NCBI RefSeq assembly: GCF_016744155.1 | Contig: NZ_JADGEW010000031.1 | Coordinates: 1 to 44,690 of the forward strand | Origin: Amphritea sp. | GTDB taxonomy: Bacteria; Pseudomonadota; Gammaproteobacteria; Pseudomonadales; Balneatricaceae | DNA: 44,690 bases | Direction: 5' to 3' | Shown here: positions 4,315 through 28,294 of the stretch, piece after piece | Numbering within the stretch: position 1 is the stretch's first letter | Layout: each line of letters begins with the position of its first letter | The notes under the pieces: generated by a model | The model's database searches: none | What the model was told of the DNA's origin: nothing | What the model saw: the letters and a program-made list of their open reading frames with translations, nothing else | Translations under genes and position numbers: made by a program

Positions 4315-4749
4315 ATGATTGAAGAAAATGGGCGTGTTGTTCGGGTTGAGTCAGATTTTGTCTGGGTTGAAACGATAAAGCAGAGCGCCTGTTCAAGTTG
4401 TACTGCGCAAAAAGGTTGTGGGCAAAGCTTGATAGCTAAAATAGGTGATGGAAAACGGATGGAGATTCAGGTCGATAATCCGCACCATATCGCAGCGCTT
4501 GTAAATGATCAGGTCACTTTAGGTGTCGGTGAACGATCTTTTTTGACGGCATCGTTTCTGGTTTATCTGTTACCTCTGATTGTGATGTTTATTGTGGCTG
4601 TGTCAGTACAGCTGTCTGGCTTTACCGAGCCAACGGTTATATTGAGTGCGTTAGTTGGGTTAGCGGGTGGTTTTCTGTTAACCCATTATATCTCCGGTCG
4701 CATAAGCCGGAACTGCAGCTACCGACCGGTACTGCTTCGTAAAATCTGA
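4315..4749 (+). CDS. rseC: RseC/MucC family regulator of sigma-E signalling
   Basis: This inner-membrane protein of 144 aa belongs to the RseC/MucC family, positive modulators of sigma-E activity. The N-terminal domain has a cysteine cluster CSSCTAQKGCG (Cys26, Cys29, Cys35), typical of the family and suggestive of a metal or Fe-S site. Two transmembrane helices lie at about residues 77-98 and 106-125. It starts 3 bases after the rseA stop, so it is very likely cotranscribed and translationally coupled. Confidence 0.92.
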   Translation: MIEENGRVVRVESDFVWVETIKQSACSSCTAQKGCGQSLIAKIGDGKRMEIQVDNPHHIAALVNDQVTLGVGERSFLTASFLVYLLPLIVMFIVAVSVQLSGFTEPTVILSALVGLAGGFLLTHYISGRISRNCSYRPVLLRKI

Positions 4750-22109: not shown

Positions 22110-23156
22110 ATGTCTCAGCCTAAAACAGCGGTACTGCTTGTTAATTTAGGGTCGCCAGATCAACCCACCCCGGGAGCGGTTCGCCGTTACCTGAAAGAAT
22201 TTCTTTCAGATCGTCGGGTCGTTGAAGGCGATGGCATCATGCGTCTGGTTTGGCTGACGGTGCTTAACGGTATTATTCTGACCTTTCGACCTCGTAAAGT
22301 GGCAAAGCTCTACGCATCTATCTGGGATCAAGACTCTCCACTACGGTTGATACTCAATCAGCAGGTTGCCGCGCTGCAATTGGCGCTTCAGCAGCAGATG
22401 CCGGGGCAGGATATTCAGGTTTTCTCGGCGATGACTTACGGTAATCCGGGTCTCACGCCGCGGTTAGCCGAGCTAAAACAGGCGGGCTATCAGAAAATTT
22501 TAGTATTACCGCTATATCCGCAATACTCCGACACCACCACTGCGCCGATCTATGATCAGATCGCCCGGTTTCAGTTACAGAATCGTAATCCACCGGATAT
22601 TCGGGTGCTGCATGATTACCATGACCACCCGCTCTATATCCGAGCGCTGGCGGATTCAGTACGTGATTATCGCGTTGAGCAGGGGCAGGGAGATAAGTTA
22701 ATTCTTTCTTACCACGGTATACCCCAAGAGTATGCTGAACGGGGTGACCCCTATCCTGATCACTGTCACCGCACCTCAGAACTGCTAGCACATGAACTGG
22801 GGCTGGCTCCAGATCAGTGGCAAACCACTTTTCAGTCCCGTTTCGGGCCTAAGGCCTGGCTACAGCCCTATACCGATAAAACCCTAGAGAAACTGCCTGA
22901 GAGCGGCGTGAAACAAGTCGATATCATCTCTCCTGCGTTCTCTGCCGATTGTCTGGAAACATTGGAAGAGCTCTCGGTAGAAAACCGCGATATTTTTATG
23001 GAAGCGGGTGGCGAGCAGTACCAGTATATTCCAGCATTGAATGCCGATAAGGGTATGATTCGCCTGCTGGTGGATCTGGTACAACAGAATAGTTCAGGCT
23101 GGTTTAATCCGGTCAGTACAAATAATGAACAGAATGAGATAAACGATGCGCCCTGA
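22110..23156 (+). CDS. hemH: Ferrochelatase HemH
   Basis: HemH inserts Fe2+ into protoporphyrin IX, the last step of haem synthesis, at the inner membrane. Starting at ATG 22110 gives 348 aa with the usual opening KTAVLLVNLGSPDQPT. A TTG at 22086 would add 8 residues and is not favoured. The catalytic histidine segment ILSYHGIPQEYAERGDPYP and the conserved QSRFGPKAWLQPYT and SPAFSADCLETLEE motifs are present. The 3' end overlaps rlmB by 11 bases. Confidence 0.95.
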   Translation: MSQPKTAVLLVNLGSPDQPTPGAVRRYLKEFLSDRRVVEGDGIMRLVWLTVLNGIILTFRPRKVAKLYASIWDQDSPLRLILNQQVAALQLALQQQMPGQDIQVFSAMTYGNPGLTPRLAELKQAGYQKILVLPLYPQYSDTTTAPIYDQIARFQLQNRNPPDIRVLHDYHDHPLYIRALADSVRDYRVEQGQGDKLILSYHGIPQEYAERGDPYPDHCHRTSELLAHELGLAPDQWQTTFQSRFGPKAWLQPYTDKTLEKLPESGVKQVDIISPAFSADCLETLEELSVENRDIFMEAGGEQYQYIPALNADKGMIRLLVDLVQQNSSGWFNPVSTNNEQNEINDAP

Positions 23157-23886
23157 GTATATTTTTGGAATACATGCCGCGACCACCACGCTGGAGCGAG
23201 ATAGTAAGCGTGTCAAAGGGATGTGGGCGTTGAAAGGCCGTGCCGACGCGCGGATGCAAAAACTGCTGGACCTGGCGAAAGCCAAACAGATTCAAGTGGA
23301 ATGGGTGAGTCGTAAAGAGCTGGACGATATGGCGGAAGAGGGCGTGCACCAGGGCGTCGTTGTTGCCTGTGAGCCGATTCAAACGAAGAACGAACAGTTC
23401 CTCGATGCGATGTTAGAAAAGCTTGAAGAGCCCGCTTTTCTATTGGTTTTAGATGGCGTAACCGACCCTCACAACCTGGGTGCTTGTCTGCGTACCGCTG
23501 ATGCCGCGGGCGTCCATGCGGTGATTGCACCAAAAGACAAGTCTGCACCGCTGAATGCGGTTGCGAGTAAAGTTGCCTGTGGCGCCGCGGAAGTTGTGCC
23601 CTACGTACTGGTCACCAATCTGGCGCGTACCCTGAAAGACCTACAGCAGAAGGGAGTCTGGATTACCGGAACCGCTGGCGAAGCCGAAACTCTGGTTTAT
23701 AACGCCGACCTGAAAGGGCCGATGGCGCTGGTGATGGGCGCCGAAGGCCAGGGCATGCGCCGTCTCACCCGTGAAAACTGCGACTTTCTGGTAAAGATTG
23801 ATATGGCGGGCGAGGTTTCCTCACTGAACGTATCAGTAGCCACCGGGGTTTGCCTGTTTGAAGCCGTTCGGCAGAGGAAAGCTTAA
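23146..23886 (+). CDS. rlmB: 23S rRNA (guanosine-2'-O-)-methyltransferase RlmB
   Basis: RlmB is a SPOUT-fold methyltransferase that modifies G2251 of 23S rRNA in the peptidyltransferase P loop. At 246 aa, the N-terminal L30e-like RNA-binding domain (about 1-75) is followed by the SpoU domain with LDGVTDPHNLGACLRTADAA, VMGAEGQGMRRL and SSLNVSVATGVCLFEA, the three SpoU knot motifs. It starts inside hemH (11-base overlap), suggesting translational coupling. Repeat-rich DNA begins about 20 bases after its stop. Confidence 0.96.
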   Translation: MRPEYIFGIHAATTTLERDSKRVKGMWALKGRADARMQKLLDLAKAKQIQVEWVSRKELDDMAEEGVHQGVVVACEPIQTKNEQFLDAMLEKLEEPAFLLVLDGVTDPHNLGACLRTADAAGVHAVIAPKDKSAPLNAVASKVACGAAEVVPYVLVTNLARTLKDLQQKGVWITGTAGEAETLVYNADLKGPMALVMGAEGQGMRRLTRENCDFLVKIDMAGEVSSLNVSVATGVCLFEAVRQRKA

Positions 23887-23908
23887 AAGCCGTCGCTAGT
23901 AGTTAGAT

Positions 23909-23963
23909 GGGGAGCAATCTCCCCTTGCTAGACGCGACTGCGTCGCTTGCTAGAAAAATCTGC
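23909..23963 (+). repeat. Linker-hairpin repeat, copy A (2 hairpins)
   Basis: Hairpin GGGGAG-CAAT-CTCCCC (23909-23924) is followed by linker TTGCTAGAC, hairpin GCGAC-TGC-GTCGC (23934-23946) and the end block TTGCTAGAAAAA. The linker and end block recur in copies B, C and D, while the stems differ but remain perfectly paired. Confidence 0.85.
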
Positions 23964-23968
23964 CCTTC

Positions 23969-23997
23969 TGTAGGAGCTGCGTCCCGCGGCGATAAAC
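23969..23997 (+). repeat. REP-like palindrome, copy 1
   Basis: This 29-base unit starts TGTAGGAGC and ends CGATAAAC around a stem GCTGCG-TCC-CGCGGC with one G-U pair. It differs from the copy at 24756-24784 at a single base. It resembles the short palindromic REP elements of Pseudomonas and relatives. Translated on the minus strand it yields the frame SPRDAAPTEG, a typical source of false gene calls. Confidence 0.85.
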
Positions 23998-24028
23998 GAC
24001 TGAAAAATAGGTTAAAAAGGAGGTTCTG

Positions 24029-24247
24029 ATGGTGCTGTTCTGGCCAATTCAACAAGAACTTGATTGCATTAGTGGTAGCGGGCGCATTCTCGGAAAGATA
24101 AAGTTTGATGGCTATAAAGATGAGCACAGATTCTGCCCTGATAATGAATCACTCGTCTTATCAAGTCTGGAACAATCCTGTATTGCTGAGCGGCTATCTG
24201 GCCTTGATTCAGGTAAGTATTCAATACCTATGCAAGATGATGATTGA
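24029..24247 (+). CDS. Small protein of unknown function (72 aa)
   Basis: I do not recognise this family. The ATG follows an excellent AAGGAGG with 5-6 bases spacing, which supports real translation. The protein is soluble and acidic at its end (MQDDD), with no signal peptide or membrane helix and two cysteines (about 13 and 36, 51 also Cys). It sits alone between REP-like repeats and the convergent yjdM. Its start lies 32 bases after a REP-like unit, so its promoter must lie within or just after the repeats. Confidence 0.6.
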   Translation: MVLFWPIQQELDCISGSGRILGKIKFDGYKDEHRFCPDNESLVLSSLEQSCIAERLSGLDSGKYSIPMQDDD

Positions 24248-24271
24248 TGTAACTCGGGAATTGAATTCGCG

Positions 24272-24610
24272 CTAAGCTTTCTTTACAAACTTAGCCGTAA
24301 CCATCATTTCACCAGCACCCGCCAGCTTGCAGTCAAGCTCGTGATCCTTGCCTTCTACTATTCTTCTTATACTGGCTTTTATGCCGACTTTAAGAACTTG
24401 CGAACTGCCTTTAACTTTAAGGTCTTTAATCAGTGTGACCTTATCGCCCGCTTCAAGCAGGGTTCCGTTCGCATCTTTTACGGCAAAGATCTCTTCTTCC
24501 TGCGCCGTTTCCGACGGATTCCATTCGTGCGCACATTCGGGACAAACCAGATTATTCTGATCTTCGTAGACAAACGCTGAGTTACAGTTTGGGCAGGGGG
24601 GGTATGACAC
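24272..24610 (-). CDS. yjdM: YjdM/PhnA family zinc-ribbon protein
   Basis: This 112-aa protein of the YjdM (formerly PhnA) family has an N-terminal zinc ribbon (Cys6, Cys9, Cys23, Cys26 in CPNC...CPEC) and a C-terminal SH3-like domain with DANGTLLEAGDKVTLIKDLKVKG. Despite the old PhnA name, no role in phosphonate use is established, and no phn genes are nearby. It converges on the 72-aa gene with a 24-base gap. Confidence 0.93.
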   Translation of the reverse strand: MSYPPCPNCNSAFVYEDQNNLVCPECAHEWNPSETAQEEEIFAVKDANGTLLEAGDKVTLIKDLKVKGSSQVLKVGIKASIRRIVEGKDHELDCKLAGAGEMMVTAKFVKKA

Positions 24611-24655
24611 GGGCTTTATCCTTTTGGACTCTTCAATACGGGTATAACAATAACA

Positions 24656-24684
24656 GCTAAAAAGGGCTCTGACCCTTTAAATTC
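24656..24684. repeat. RAYT/REP-type fragment with GGGTCAGAG word (reverse)
   Basis: AAAGGG-CTCTGA-CCCTTT forms a 6-bp stem. The minus strand reads GGGTCAGAGCCCTTT, which shares the word AGGGTCAGAG with 25977-25986. Such words commonly flank REP-associated tyrosine transposase (RAYT) elements in marine gammaproteobacteria. No transposase gene is present here. Confidence 0.55.
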
Positions 24685-24690
24685 GTAGTA

Positions 24691-24745
24691 GCTAGACGTG
24701 GCTGCGCCACTTGCTCGAACGCCACTGCGTGGCTTGCTAGAAAAA
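24691..24745 (+). repeat. Linker-hairpin repeat, copy B (2 hairpins)
   Basis: GCTAGAC is followed by hairpin GTGGC-TGC-GCCAC (24698-24710), linker TTGCTCGAAC, hairpin GCCAC-TGC-GTGGC (24721-24733) and end block TTGCTAGAAAAA. The two stems are the same arms in swapped order, so longer-range alternative pairing is possible. A REP-like unit follows at the same distance as in copy A. Confidence 0.85.
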
Positions 24746-24755
24746 GCGGGCCCTC

Positions 24756-24784
24756 TGTAGGAGCCGCGTCCCGCGGCGATAAAC
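24756..24784 (+). repeat. REP-like palindrome, copy 2
   Basis: This is the same 29-base unit as at 23969-23997, here with a perfect stem GCCGCG-TCC-CGCGGC (24763-24777). It directly follows linker-hairpin copy B with an 11-base spacer, the same layout as copy A, so the two modules travel together. Bases 24785-25060 beyond it contain no gene I can support. Confidence 0.85.
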
Positions 24785-25060
24785 CACCTATGTCACCATC
24801 ATATAGAACGGCCTTAACCCAGGGATCGTATCGCTTCCCTCCACTCGTTAGAGAAAACTGTACTCTGACGTACTTTCGGCATGTGTCGGAAAAACGCCTT
24901 TGGTTGATCGTGTCGATCAATCGCGACATAGGTATCGTTCCCATTGGTACTAAATAATTAGAATATCGAGTAATAGCCCAGTTTATTGGCAATATTCCGT
25001 TAAATTGACTAAATGTTAATGGAGCCAGTTCCTTTACCGAGCTGGCAGGAGGGTATTGTA

Positions 25061-25306
25061 ATGTTGGGCGAAGACCACTCTTTAGTGCATGACTTTCCTG
25101 ATCTTCAGGATGCTATTGTCCGGCTTTCTGAAGCCGATCAGAAGTTTGCGTTAGATAATAAATATTACCAATCGATCGATAAACAGATCCGGGTGTTGGA
25201 ACTGAACAACTCCCCCATCGATGATCTGACTATGCATCAGTTAAAGCATGAGCGTTCAGAGCTCAAAGACTCGCTCTACCGACGGCTGGTTAAAGAGCGT
25301 CATTAG
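25061..25306 (+). CDS. YdcH family (DUF465) protein
   Basis: This small coiled-coil-forming protein of 81 aa belongs to the YdcH/DUF465 family, function unknown. The start ATG at 25061 is preceded by CAGGAGGG 7 bases upstream. An in-frame ATG at 25013 lacks a ribosome site. Family features are the N-terminal HDFPDLQDAIVRLSEAD, the central YYQSIDKQIRVLE and the C-terminal LKHERSELKDSLYRRL. It stands alone, flanked by repeat-bearing spacers. Confidence 0.88.
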   Translation: MLGEDHSLVHDFPDLQDAIVRLSEADQKFALDNKYYQSIDKQIRVLELNNSPIDDLTMHQLKHERSELKDSLYRRLVKERH

Positions 25307-25329
25307 AAGGGGCTAGATAGGCGTTGCCA

Positions 25330-25740
25330 TTACGGCACTAGTTCATCCAGCTCGGGTAGCATCACTACACTTTCCTGAGCGGTTGGTTCATTGCGCACGC
25401 CGACAAACACCGCAGGCGTAGCACCTCTGTTTACCGCCACATGGGCAACATTAGCGGGAATAAATAGATAATCGCCGGTCTGCGCCAAGGCTCTGTTCTC
25501 AAGTTGCGGCCCCGTACAGAGTTCAACATTTTCACCGCTCAAAAGATAAAAAGCCGATTCATGATGTTGATGTAGATGCGCCTTAGTACGCGCGCCTTCA
25601 GGTATAGTGACAACGCCCAGAAAGACGGCTTCTGATCCCACGGTTTCCGCACTGATGCCCGGAGAGTAGATAGAACCCTGTTGACTGGTGTAACTATCAG
25701 CGCCCTTAACAACACTGCCAATCTTATCCTTTGAAGACAT
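25330..25740 (-). CDS. Single-domain cupin protein
   Basis: This 136-aa small cupin has the first motif HLHQHHESAFYLLSGE (metal-binding histidines and glutamate) and the second motif GDYLFIPANVAHVAVN. The fold suggests a metal-dependent enzyme, isomerase or ligand sensor, and the substrate cannot be deduced. I prefer the ATG at 25740 because GAGG lies 5 bases before it. An upstream in-frame ATG at 25755 adds 5 residues but lies before that site. It converges on ydcH with a 23-base gap. Confidence 0.85.
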   Translation of the reverse strand: MSSKDKIGSVVKGADSYTSQQGSIYSPGISAETVGSEAVFLGVVTIPEGARTKAHLHQHHESAFYLLSGENVELCTGPQLENRALAQTGDYLFIPANVAHVAVNRGATPAVFVGVRNEPTAQESVVMLPELDELVP

Positions 25741-25832
25741 AACTACCTCATACATGAGCCTATTTTCGTCGATTTCTACTATCGAATAAAACTATAGACG
25801 CTAAAGGGGCATTAGACGCTATTTATCAGACC

Positions 25833-25932
25833 GTATCGCTTCGCGATACTCGCTAGACGGGAAGTAAGCTTCCCTTGCTAGACGTGGTTTCGCCACTTGC
25901 TCGAACGCCACTACGTGGCTTGCTAGAAAAAA
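25833..25932 (+). repeat. Linker-hairpin repeat, copy C (4 hairpins)
   Basis: Four hairpins occur in series: GTATCGC-TTC-GCGATAC (25833-25849), GGGAAG-TAAG-CTTCCC (25859-25874), GTGG-TTTCG-CCAC (25884-25896) and GCCAC-TAC-GTGGC (25907-25919). They are joined by CTAGAC, TTGCTAGAC and TTGCTCGAAC and end with TTGCTAGAAAAAA. The last two hairpins resemble copy B. The downstream REP-like unit is interrupted after TGTAG. Confidence 0.85.
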
Positions 25933-25950
25933 CGGTTCCTTCTGTAGCGA

Positions 25951-25980
25951 GTAAATAGGAGTAAATAGGAGTAAATAGGG
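25951..25980. repeat. 10-bp direct repeat x3 (GTAAATAGGA)
   Basis: Three tandem copies of GTAAATAGGA occur, the last ending GGG. They replace the REP-like unit seen in copies A and B and run directly into the word GGGTCAGAGTACATTTAAAT (25978-25997) typical of RAYT/REP-type repeat ends. Confidence 0.85.
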
Positions 25981-26045
25981 TCAGAGTACATTTAAATTAT
26001 CTCTTCGTGGTTCTACTTGTTCTGGATTAGGTTACTCCCCCACCC

Positions 26046-26076
26046 ATAAAAAAGAGAGCCAATAGCTCTCTTTTCT
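26046..26076 (-). terminator. Terminator after ackA (bidirectional)
   Basis: Stem AAAGAGAGC / GCTCTCTTT (26051-26073) with loop CAATA has A-rich sequence before it and T-rich after it, so it can work on both strands. On the minus strand it lies about 90 bases beyond the ackA stop, past linker-hairpin copy D. Confidence 0.8.
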
Positions 26077-26082
26077 TTTGCT

Positions 26083-26147
26083 TTTTCTAGCAAGGAAAAC
26101 GAAGTTTTCCGTCTAGCCACGAGCAAGTTGCGAAGCAACGTCTAGCT
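26083..26147 (-). repeat. Linker-hairpin repeat, copy D (2 hairpins, inverted)
   Basis: Read on the minus strand: CTAGAC, hairpin GTTGC-TTC-GCAAC (26127-26139), linker TTGCTCGTGGCTAGAC, hairpin GGAAAAC-TTC-GTTTTCC (26094-26110) and end block TTGCTAGAAAAA. It has opposite orientation to copy C, with A-rich ends facing across the ackA terminator. It begins 13 bases from the ackA stop and would form part of the ackA mRNA 3' end. Confidence 0.85.
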
Positions 26148-26160
26148 ACTCGAAGGCGTT

Positions 26161-27351
26161 TTATCCTTCGGCTAAAACCTCTTCGGCATGCAACGCGATC
26201 ATAGCCTCTTCATTAGTCGGTATCACCCGCACAACAACAGGGCTGGAAGCTTTGCTGATAATAGCCTCCCCCTCTTTGTTGGCGCTTTTGTTTAATTTGA
26301 TGCCTAACCATTCCAGCTGATCGCAGATGCGCTTGCGCAGTTTGTTATCGTTTTCACCCACGCCACCGGTAAATACCAGTTGTTCCAAGCCTTGCAGAGC
26401 GGCGCTAAGGCGGCCGATCTCAAGTGCTGCGCGGTAGGCAAACATGGCGATCGCTTCTTCGGCTTCCGGCTTATCTGATTGTTCTAGTTCCAGCATATCG
26501 GCGCTGATACCTGAAACGCCCAGCCAGCCACTCTCTTTATAGAGGAAGCTTTCCAGCTGATCGGCATCCATATGATAGTGGCGCTGTAGGTAGAGTAAAA
26601 CACCGGGGTCAATATTGCCGGTACGGCTGCCCATTGGTAGACCATCTACCGCGGTAAAGCCCATCGTTGAAGCGATGGATCTGCCTTCTTTGACAGCACA
26701 CATACTTGCGCCAGCACCTAGGTGACAGACGATGGTTTTAGCACTTTCAGCACCGCGACCGATGCTCTCTAGCGAACGCTGGATAAACTCGTAAGATAAG
26801 CCGTGGAAACCGTACTTATGAATGCCCGCTTCAGTGTACTTACGGGGAATGGCGTAATGGCGTTCCACATTTGGCTGGCCGACATGGAACATCGTATCGA
26901 AGCAAGCGATTTGGGGTAGTTCCGGTTCCAGTTGCTGGCATGCCTGAATCAGTTTCAGATTATAGGGCTGATGCAAGGGAGCCAGAGGGATAAACTCTTC
27001 CAGCTGCTGCATAATCTGATCTGTTATCAATACCGGGTCAGTGAATGCTTCACCACCGTGTACAACTCGGTGACCAAAGGCGCTGATGCGGCTATCTGGC
27101 AGCTGTTTATGTACCCACTGAATAACCCGGTCAAGACAGGCCTGATGGCGATTTTCGGTTGCGATCTCGGCCATATCTAATTGATATTGATCCAGAGTCT
27201 CGCCCTGGTTAGAAATTACCTTCATCACTGGCGCATTAAGAATATTGGCCAGCTTAAATTGGTACAGGCACTCGGCATTGCCAGTGTTACGTGAAAAGAG
27301 TGCACATTTCAGACTGGAGGAGCCGCCATTTACGGTCAGAATCAGGCTCAT
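26161..27351 (-). CDS. ackA: Acetate kinase AckA
   Basis: AckA interconverts acetyl phosphate + ADP and acetate + ATP. Starting at ATG 27351 gives 396 aa with the expected opening LILTVNGGSSSLK. A longer frame upstream runs inside pta and is rejected. The motifs HRVVHGGE, CFDTMFH, HLGAGASMCAV and GLPMGSRTGNIDPG and the ending FTGGVGEN...EEAMIA are present. It starts 1 base after the pta stop, so the two genes form an operon for acetate/acetyl-CoA metabolism. Confidence 0.96.
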   Translation of the reverse strand: MSLILTVNGGSSSLKCALFSRNTGNAECLYQFKLANILNAPVMKVISNQGETLDQYQLDMAEIATENRHQACLDRVIQWVHKQLPDSRISAFGHRVVHGGEAFTDPVLITDQIMQQLEEFIPLAPLHQPYNLKLIQACQQLEPELPQIACFDTMFHVGQPNVERHYAIPRKYTEAGIHKYGFHGLSYEFIQRSLESIGRGAESAKTIVCHLGAGASMCAVKEGRSIASTMGFTAVDGLPMGSRTGNIDPGVLLYLQRHYHMDADQLESFLYKESGWLGVSGISADMLELEQSDKPEAEEAIAMFAYRAALEIGRLSAALQGLEQLVFTGGVGENDNKLRKRICDQLEWLGIKLNKSANKEGEAIISKASSPVVVRVIPTNEEAMIALHAEEVLAEG

Positions 27352-27352
27352 A

Positions 27353-28294
27353 TTATTTCGCTTCCTGTGGGTGTAGAACCATATGTGAGGCCAGAGCACA
27401 GGATGCCAGGCGTGCCAGCGTGCCATCAGAACGGCTATTCAGAATTATAGGTGCCCGGGCGCCCAGTGCGATACCCGCAGACTTAGCGTTGGCAAGATAG
27501 ATCAGCTGCTTTGCCAGCATATTAGCGGATTCCAAATCGGGGGCTAAGAGGATATCAGCATCGCCGGAGACCGGCGAAGTGATATGTTTATCGATAGCGG
27601 CCTGTAGAGAGATGGCATTATCGAAGGCCAGTGGGCCATCCAGAATGGCGCCGGTGATCTGTCCCCGATCTGACATTTTACATAGGGCTGCAGCGTCAAT
27701 GGTGCTTTGCATCGAGGGTTTTACTTTCTCAACGGCCGCCAGAATAGCGACTTTTGGCTCGTTGATGCCCAGCGCGTGACAGAAGTCGATGGCGTTCTGC
27801 AGAATATCCCGCTTTACCATAATATCAGGTGAGACGTTGATCGCGGCATCGGTGATCATCAGGGGTTTATGGTAATTCGGAACGTCCAGTACAAAGATAT
27901 GGCTCTGGCGACGTTCGGTACGAATACCCAGTGTTTTGTGGATAACAGCACTCAGGAGTTCGGAAGTACCCAGATCACCCTTCATCAGGGTTTCGGCCCG
28001 TGCTTCACGTATCAGGCGGACTGACATCTCTGCTGAGGCATGACTGTGTTCGACATCGATCAGTTCATAGCCATCGATATTAAGCTGATACTTATCGGCA
28101 GTGGCACGTATTTTTGCCTCTGGACCTATTAAAATAGGGACTATCAGGCCGCGTTCAGCAGCCTCTACGGCGCCCATTAAGCCGTTATGCTCAACCGGAT
28201 GCACGACGGCAGTTCGTACCGGACGCGCTTTAACCGCTTCTTCAATAAAGAATTCGAGTTGATTATGGATAGGGGGTTTTTCTGAAAGGATCAT
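27353..28294 (-). CDS. pta: Phosphate acetyl/butyryltransferase, short form (Pta)
   Basis: This enzyme converts acetyl-CoA (or another acyl-CoA) and phosphate to acyl phosphate, feeding AckA. At 313 aa it consists of the catalytic PTA/PTB domain only, whereas E. coli Pta has 714 aa with regulatory N-terminal domains. Conserved stretches include LMKGDLGTSELLSAV, LMITDAAINVSPD and ITGAILDGPLAFDNAIS. The GAILDGPLA region and short form leave acetyl versus butyryl specificity open, but pairing with AckA favours acetate. The ribosome site GGAG lies before ATG 28294. Confidence 0.88.
   Translation of the reverse strand: MILSEKPPIHNQLEFFIEEAVKARPVRTAVVHPVEHNGLMGAVEAAERGLIVPILIGPEAKIRATADKYQLNIDGYELIDVEHSHASAEMSVRLIREARAETLMKGDLGTSELLSAVIHKTLGIRTERRQSHIFVLDVPNYHKPLMITDAAINVSPDIMVKRDILQNAIDFCHALGINEPKVAILAAVEKVKPSMQSTIDAAALCKMSDRGQITGAILDGPLAFDNAISLQAAIDKHITSPVSGDADILLAPDLESANMLAKQLIYLANAKSAGIALGARAPIILNSRSDGTLARLASCALASHMVLHPQEAK

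Follow-up and report, generated by a model that had tools for sequence, protein, structure and literature searches.

The window analysed here is the whole 44,690-base stretch of an Amphritea sp. contig (NZ_JADGEW010000031.1), and our subject is a set of four small elements within it, A to D, each a string of two to four short hairpins. An earlier note, made from the letters of this DNA, had described ten hairpins at these sites, and all ten were present on direct reading of the window sequence. We consider it probable that the elements belong to a genus-restricted family of non-autonomous repeats resembling repetitive extragenic palindromes (REPs), copied into their present sites, divided into sub-families and exchanging stems as blocks. 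The elements, their hairpins (written as arm, loop and arm) and two adjoining genes are as follows.

23146..23886, + strand: rlmB (23S rRNA 2'-O-methyltransferase; NCBIfam NF008386 above cut-off), with element A at its 3' end
23892..23958, + strand: element A, with tag/linker GTCGCTAGTAGTTAGAT, two hairpins, linker TTGCTAGAC and end block TTGCTAGAAAAA
23909-23924, + strand: element A hairpin 1, GGGGAG-CAAT-CTCCCC
23934-23946, + strand: element A hairpin 2, GCGAC-TGC-GTCGC
24688..24745, + strand: element B, with GTAGCTAGAC, two hairpins, linker TTGCTCGAAC and end block TTGCTAGAAAAA
24698-24710, + strand: element B hairpin 1, GTGGC-TGC-GCCAC
24721-24733, + strand: element B hairpin 2, GCCAC-TGC-GTGGC
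25833..25931, + strand: element C, with four hairpins, linkers TCGCTAGAC, TTGCTAGAC and TTGCTCGAAC, and end block TTGCTAGAAAAA
25833-25849, + strand: element C hairpin 1, GTATCGC-TTC-GCGATAC
25859-25874, + strand: element C hairpin 2, GGGAAG-TAAG-CTTCCC
25884-25896, + strand: element C hairpin 3, GTGGT-TTC-GCCAC, with one G·T pair
25907-25919, + strand: element C hairpin 4, GCCAC-TAC-GTGGC
26082..26149, - strand: element D, with GTAGCTAGAC, two hairpins, linker TTGCTCGTGGCTAGAC and end block TTGCTAGAAAAA
26139-26127, - strand: element D hairpin 1, GTTGC-TTC-GCAAC
26110-26094, - strand: element D hairpin 2, GGAAAAC-TTC-GTTTTCC
26161..27426, - strand: acetate/propionate kinase gene (ackA family; TIGR00016 above cut-off), with element D at its 3' end

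A search rule combining a 5' linker, a hairpin and a 3' linker, with at most two linker mismatches (the linker-plus-pairing rule), recovered nine of the ten hairpins and found no further match in the 44,690 bases. The same rule gave a mean of 0.125 matches and a maximum of 2 in 40 dinucleotide shuffles of the window, which supports the ten hairpins as real features. The hairpin that it missed, the first of element C, has a diverged 5' linker and was found by eye and by another rule. The claim of the earlier note that the stems differ completely was too strong, as GTGGC/GCCAC or its arm swap occurs four times within the window, once with one G·T pair. The first stem of element A begins 22 nt past the rlmB stop codon, in sense, and element D lies 21 nt past the stop of the acetate kinase gene, also in sense; rlmB and the ackA-family gene each had matches in all 17 genomes of the genus. 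Elements B and C both lie upstream of gene starts on the opposite strand, B at a phnA-like gene and C at an open reading frame (ORF) with a weak, below-cut-off cupin match, so that two of the four elements are not behind a stop codon in sense. The curated covariance models of Rfam gave no match in the window at gathering thresholds, and a known RNA family was rejected on this basis; between 23850 and 26200, the only match up to an E-value of 1 was to STnc420, which scored 21.2 bits where the cut-off is 70.

Beyond the window, the repeating unit has the consensus (GTNG)-YTMGA(A)C-stem-TNC-stem-TTGCTMG. Stems are mostly 5-7 bp and the loop is mostly TNC; units follow one another head to tail with linkers in common, and the strings often terminate in TTGCTAGAAAAAGC. 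A covariance model was built from 18 units, all from the genome of the window, which therefore match by construction. It gave 111 matches in that genome (4.15 Mb) at E<=10, with 150 of 1001 candidates scored, and 71 matches at E<=0.001 under stricter filters. Within 53 stretches of the same genome (259 kb), 115 units were grouped into 85 elements (56 single, 28 double and one triple by the rule used), after two further matches had been discarded as unrelated; the reversed control gave two. The expectation that the linkers would be enriched outside the four loci was borne out for the whole unit, as the 111 matches attest, and failed for the bare linker TTGCTAGA, which occurred 117 times genome-wide against 183 for the backward pattern.

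The family appears to be confined to Amphritea, a genus of marine bacteria. Twelve of 57 genomes searched with the covariance model were positive, all in the genus of the window (12 of 17 genomes there, or 11 of 16 congeners without the window's own), and none of 40 genomes from other genera was positive at E<=0.001; the search of related genomes that the earlier note had proposed found the family in congeners only. A pattern scan covering one genome per species (84,980 species), which requires a TNC-type loop on a stem of 5 bp and may omit records near the window's own genome, returned 48 stretches. Forty-one of these were titled Amphritea, six came from one metagenome-assembled genome (MAG) titled 'Oceanospirillales bacterium' and one from a MAG titled 'uncultured bacterium'. 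A virus-borne family was rejected, as the sole stretch from a pattern scan of viral contigs holds no unit by the linker-plus-pairing rule; this is a single exact pattern match at positions 4394-4419 of locus L334, on a 52.8-kb IMG/VR contig. A literature search, which omits most subscription journals, found nothing on intergenic repeats of Amphritea. Two unusual arrangements were seen among the loci: in L274 (G010:C1:368739-370023), an array in which the unit repeats every ~205 bp, seven times among the matches listed, and in L241 (6970-7103), a tandem 41-bp repeat in which the family hairpin alternates with a longer CTCGC...GCGAG hairpin.

When exact linkers were the only criterion, 58 of 77 intervals in stretches of the window's genome were perfectly paired (one in the reversed control), as were 127 of 147 intervals from other genomes (two in the control). 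Relaxed linkers gave 516 odd-length intervals, comprising 366 perfect hairpins, 57 with one non-Watson-Crick pair and 93 others that are not all units; stretches of other genomes added for this set were taken from the best-scoring matches listed, and perfect stems are over-represented in them. This set of 366, like the covariation, orthologue, placement and linkage counts below, covers odd-length hairpins with mostly TTGCT-type linkers. Covariation was tested on 83 distinct 26-mers picked by their length and linkers alone. In these, 94.2% of stem cells were paired, against 76.1% in shuffles and 21-59% when partners were slid by 1-3 columns, and two-sided changes occurred in 94 stem cells against 36.8 in shuffles. 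The covarying positions are the three inner pairs, two to four, while pair one is G-C in 80 of 83 sequences and pair five is C-G in 77 of 83, so both are nearly fixed. The covariance test therefore upholds the description of constant linkers joined to varying stems that remain paired. Outer pairing of the two CTMG linkers, which folding predicts in most cases, was rejected as unsupported by the sequences, of which 19 and 11 of 83 break two of the four pairs, with no compensatory change.

The stems are drawn from a limited repertoire. The 366 perfect hairpins use 26 stems, and the seven commonest account for 287: GCGAC (83), GTCGC (66), GTCAC (45), GCGGC (41), GTGGC (24), GTGAC (15) and GTTGC (13). 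A wider rule that admitted loops of 4-5 nt and TGCT-type linkers gave 451 perfect hairpins with 40 stems (reversed control, three), of which the seven commonest made up 319 hairpins and 13 stems were seen once. The repertoire is common to several species. Free diversification of the stems, which the earlier note had suggested while naming repeated stems as the finding that would speak against it, is not what these counts describe, since the same stems recur. Stem, loop and linker are also linked, which we take as the mark of sub-families spread by copying: GCGAC has a TGC loop in 63 of 83 cases and GTCGC a TTC loop in 44 of 66, and 50 of 70 units with the AAC linker have a GTCGC, GTCAC or GCTGC stem. 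The TGC loop prevails where the fourth stem pair is A-T (GCGAC, GTCAC, GTGAC) and the TTC loop where it is G-C in GTCGC and GTTGC, with nearly even use in GCGGC and GTGGC; this association may reflect ancestry or loop stability.

Whole stems differ between orthologous loci of sister species. At the ackA ends of 13 genomes, a GTTGC hairpin comes first in seven, GCGAC stands alone in G015 and five have no clear unit. The second hairpin has the 7-bp stem GGAAAAC in G000 (the genome of the window), G004 and G006, while G010 has GAAAAAC there, with one mismatch, and G013 has GCGAC; it is absent in G009 and G016. At the rlmB end, the second hairpin is GCGAC, GTCAC or GCTGC in G000, G009 and G006, behind a common GGGGAG hairpin, and G005 has the same layout with two other stems. 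An automatic comparison of the window genome's hairpins with those of congeners at aligned linkers, in which the pairs are each made against that one genome and are not independent, gave 43 cases with the same stem, 20 with two different perfect stems, nine in which one partner had a mismatch and 14 that lacked a single partner. Among the 20 stem differences, four lay at one pair, 11 at two, one at three and four in length. As judged from these sequences, block exchange within a standing repertoire would explain the differences better than step-by-step compensation. The gap between rlmB and ackA is 65-121 bp in G001, G002, G003, G007 and G012 (0, 2, 0, 0 and 0 matches), and 0.4 to 10 kb in the window's genome and seven others, each with at least 11 matches; in G004 and G013 the genes are on different contigs and the gap cannot be measured.

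Placement relative to genes is strongly biased. By a simple ORF rule applied to the stretches of the window's genome, with a 50:50 expectation, 60 of the 81 elements that have an upstream ORF lie in sense behind it (p 1.7e-5 against one half); four elements have no upstream ORF. In co-directional gaps, 25 elements were in sense and 11 were not (p 0.029), and in convergent gaps 29 of 33 were nearer the upstream stop (p 1.1e-5). The median distance from stop to element is 23.5 nt. The stop codon is TAG in 53 of 129 element-bearing ORFs and in 43 of 217 others (p 3.6e-5), a count that omits ORFs with a family linker only ~80-250 nt downstream; this excess is consistent with a stop codon provided by the tag or by CTAG. 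The tetranucleotide tag before the 366 units is GTAG in 39, GTGG in 128 and GTNG in 226, and 81 of the 140 units without GTNG (with CTTG, CTCG, CTAG or CTGG) look fused to a preceding unit. Neighbouring units within 150 bp are arranged head to tail in 32 of 35 pairs.

This placement raises the possibility that the hairpin strings act as RNA elements in the 3' untranslated part of mRNAs, as a barrier to 3' exonucleases or as a pause or landing site immediately behind the ribosome as it terminates, with selection for RNA pairing giving rise to the covarying stems. The strong sense bias, the short distance from stop codons and the strong stem covariation all favour such a role, as does the position of terminator-like hairpins, found within 200 nt downstream in 17 of 53 cases and between stop and element, a shorter stretch, in three of 53. 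However, the opposite strand of the same stretches gave a terminator count nearly as high (14), and a function in the sense RNA predicts an excess of G·U pairs that is not seen: among single non-Watson-Crick pairs read on the sense strand there are 13 G·T and 28 A·C (p 0.028), or 13 and 26 after removal of identical hairpins (p 0.053), with 7 and 25 in a first, smaller count; 16 further single deviations are transversions. Folded as RNA, moreover, all four hairpins tried are predicted to be more stable in the complement than in the sense strand, by ~1.1 kcal/mol. These observations speak fairly well against selection on the sense RNA, which the earlier note had offered as one reason for the conserved pairing, and we regard an RNA element as unlikely. 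The elements themselves were rejected as intrinsic terminators, as TTGCTAG follows the hairpins with no T run.

An A·C pair of the sense strand corresponds to G·T on the complementary strand, which therefore has more G·T than A·C. The TNC loop reads GNA on that strand, and GNA loops in DNA are specially stable. Folded as DNA, the complement is predicted to be better by 0.6 in three of four hairpins and worse by 0.6 in one. Together, these points hint weakly that the complementary strand is the one that folds. A conserved structure whose stem varies, short flanks that are conserved, the GNA loops and the surplus of G·T over A·C on the complementary strand would also suit sites at which a site-specific recombinase acts on a folded single strand, in the manner of integron attC sites and with the complementary strand active. 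Such sites are, in our judgement, highly improbable here, given that the elements are scattered over many contigs in both orientations beside ordinary genes. An integron array was rejected for the one dense cluster of the window's genome that was inspected, which holds ordinary ORFs and no cassette array; an integrase was not searched for.

A different origin of the stems, in line with the copying mechanism that the earlier note had suggested, would be self-copying, in which template switching during replication rewrites one arm of a hairpin from the other, so that stems diversify and yet stay paired. The proportion of perfect units (366, against 57 with one deviation) agrees with such a process, and at some gene ends long perfect inverted copies of 12-13 bp adjoin the elements: 12 bp in L180 (the ackA end of G013) and L314, and 13 bp at the end of rlmB in several species (L177/L179/L185/L187). 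In these repeats, the left arm consists of the gene's last codons and the right arm lies at or just past the stop, and they look like inverted copies of gene ends. Inverted repeats across the stop, however, reach 8 bp or more in five of 129 element-bearing ORFs and three of 217 others, the means over all ORFs being 4.33 and 4.24 (p 0.86), and copying of gene ends was rejected as a general source of stems for want of enrichment. In addition, 16 of the 20 orthologous stem differences involve at least two pairs or a change of length, and most of the stems brought in are frequent at other sites of the family, which makes self-copying a very unlikely account.

The reading that we consider probable, a genus-restricted family of REP-like, non-autonomous repeats, accommodates the linked sub-families, the recurring stems and the whole-stem differences. 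A transposase acting in trans, whether Y1/TnpA-REP-like or of another type, would copy the elements, in the form of single-stranded DNA hairpins, into gene 3' ends. Sub-families with distinct stems, loops and linkers would then multiply, and homologous exchange among the many copies via the constant linkers would swap stems as blocks. Pairing would be maintained because copies with broken hairpins are not propagated or are converted back, and any effect on mRNA 3' ends would be secondary. Several observations weigh against this reading. The rlmB locus alone supplies eight of the 20 stem differences, and some of the pairings may join non-corresponding units; block exchange is deduced from pairwise differences and not from observed events, and no insertion with a target duplication is shown. 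The rlmB-ackA gap is 0.9 kb in G014 with no match and 0.8 kb in G011 with one match, so that gap size is an imperfect match to the distribution of the family. The exact GTAG tag precedes only 39 of the 366 units, and the head-to-tail strings (32 of 35 pairs) differ from the inverted dimers of the published GTAG REPs. Finally, none of 26 Y1 transposase loci, examined over ~1.5 kb on each side with some cut by contig ends or N runs, has the hairpin family on both sides.

Twelve of the 17 genomes in the genus have matches to the Y1 transposase family, and in 11 the curated cut-off is exceeded. At the 26 loci, the hairpin family is limited to one unit in two of them and to an end-block fragment on one side in L205 and L206, just beyond a GTAGGTTGGG repeat. 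Seven loci with short genes resembling REP-associated tyrosine transposases (RAYTs) lie amid 5 to 22 TGTRGGAG repeats, and four other Y1 loci lie beside GTAGGTTGGG repeats, including a remnant in the window's genome. That remnant (L206 1473-1932, G000:C33) is below the Pfam cut-off, and related longer genes in L204, L205 and L216 adjoin the same GTAGGTTGGG repeats. The resident RAYT was rejected as mobiliser, as 0 of 26 Y1 loci fit. Because a Y1 gene flanked by the repeat is a defining feature of REP/RAYT systems, we file the family as REP-like and not as a REPIN. A bolder interpretation is a bacterial hairpin-module system, in which interchangeable mini-hairpins on constant linkers behind the genes of one genus would be block-shuffled between loci, with the complementary DNA strand and its extra-stable GNA loops as active form and a driving enzyme that is neither the resident RAYT nor an integron integrase; we hold this to be quite doubtful.

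In the window, the hairpin family adjoins classical REPs of another family inside one intergenic gap:

23969..23997, + strand: REP of the other family, TGTAGGAGCTGCGTCCCGCGGCGATAAAC, directly behind element A
24756..24784, + strand: REP of the same other family, TGTAGGAGCCGCGTCCCGCGGCGATAAAC, directly behind element B

These two repeats have the layout TGTAGGAG-hairpin-GCGAT, and in congeners TGTAGGAG-type repeats with differing stems surround the short RAYT-like genes of L199, L200, L209 and L211. Elsewhere in the window, at 25949-25980, AGTAAATAGG occurs in three near-tandem copies followed by GGTCAGAGT, and GGGTCAGAG-like strings are also present in other fetched loci. The adjacency allows a REP family with a transposase in the genus to be compared with a family seemingly without one. 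The presence of different perfect stems at the same hairpin position in orthologous loci of sister species amounts to a dense natural series, with which stepwise compensation, arm copying and block exchange as routes of REP-like stem change can be tested in strain collections.

Among known systems, the mitochondrial double-hairpin elements of fungi and algae, with two hairpins each, are likewise tiny, dispersed and hairpin-built, a likeness by description only, and they belong to other genomes. Integron attC sites, in which structure is kept, sequence is variable and the complementary strand folds, share with the Amphritea family the retention of structure while sequence varies, but the Amphritea unit is much shorter. 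The closest parallels lie with REPs. Nunvar et al. 2013 (PMC3686654) define a REP as a conserved tetranucleotide, GTA/GG, behind which lies a complementary region whose base composition varies, and Di Nocera et al. 2013 (PMC3733652) describe sub-families of tagged REPs that carry alternative complementary residues in the stem. Variable stems are therefore to be expected in the Amphritea family, and the view of the earlier note that conserved linkers with variable stems are the reverse of ordinary REP families cannot be sustained. The family resembles REPINs and REP/RAYT systems in being miniature mobile DNA with a conserved tag and a variable palindrome (Bertels and Rainey 2011, PMC3116915; PMC3686654; PMC8266576). 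The transposase of these systems is reported to act on the single-stranded hairpin (PMC8266576), whereas the short RAYT-like genes of this genus stand amid other repeats and are not flanked by the hairpin family.

The likeness is most detailed for the GTAG REPs, especially the short-stem GTAG-1 types, most members of which have an unpaired GTAG or a close variant such as GTGG at one end. GTAG REPs are sited by gene 3' ends, in gaps whose ORFs converge or run in the same direction, supply TAG stops from the tag, are limited to some species of a genus, rarely form head-to-tail dimers and frequently contain G·T pairs (PMC3733652). The Amphritea family shares with them short (20-40 bp) palindromic repeats in many dispersed copies, in part of its units a GTAG-like tag at one end, alternative complementary stem residues, 3'-end siting, TAG stops attributable to the tag and the restriction to some species. 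It departs from them in its GTNG tag, placed 6-7 nt from the inner stem, in its 3' TTGCTMG and in not forming mainly inverted dimers. Also unusual are the head-to-tail strings with common linkers, the 5-7 bp stems, the lack of any Y1 gene flanked on both sides and, set against the frequent G·T pairs of GTAG REPs (PMC3733652), the lack of a sense-strand G·T excess. Taken together, the hairpin family of Amphritea is most like a new variety of REP repeats, and not a wholly new kind of element.

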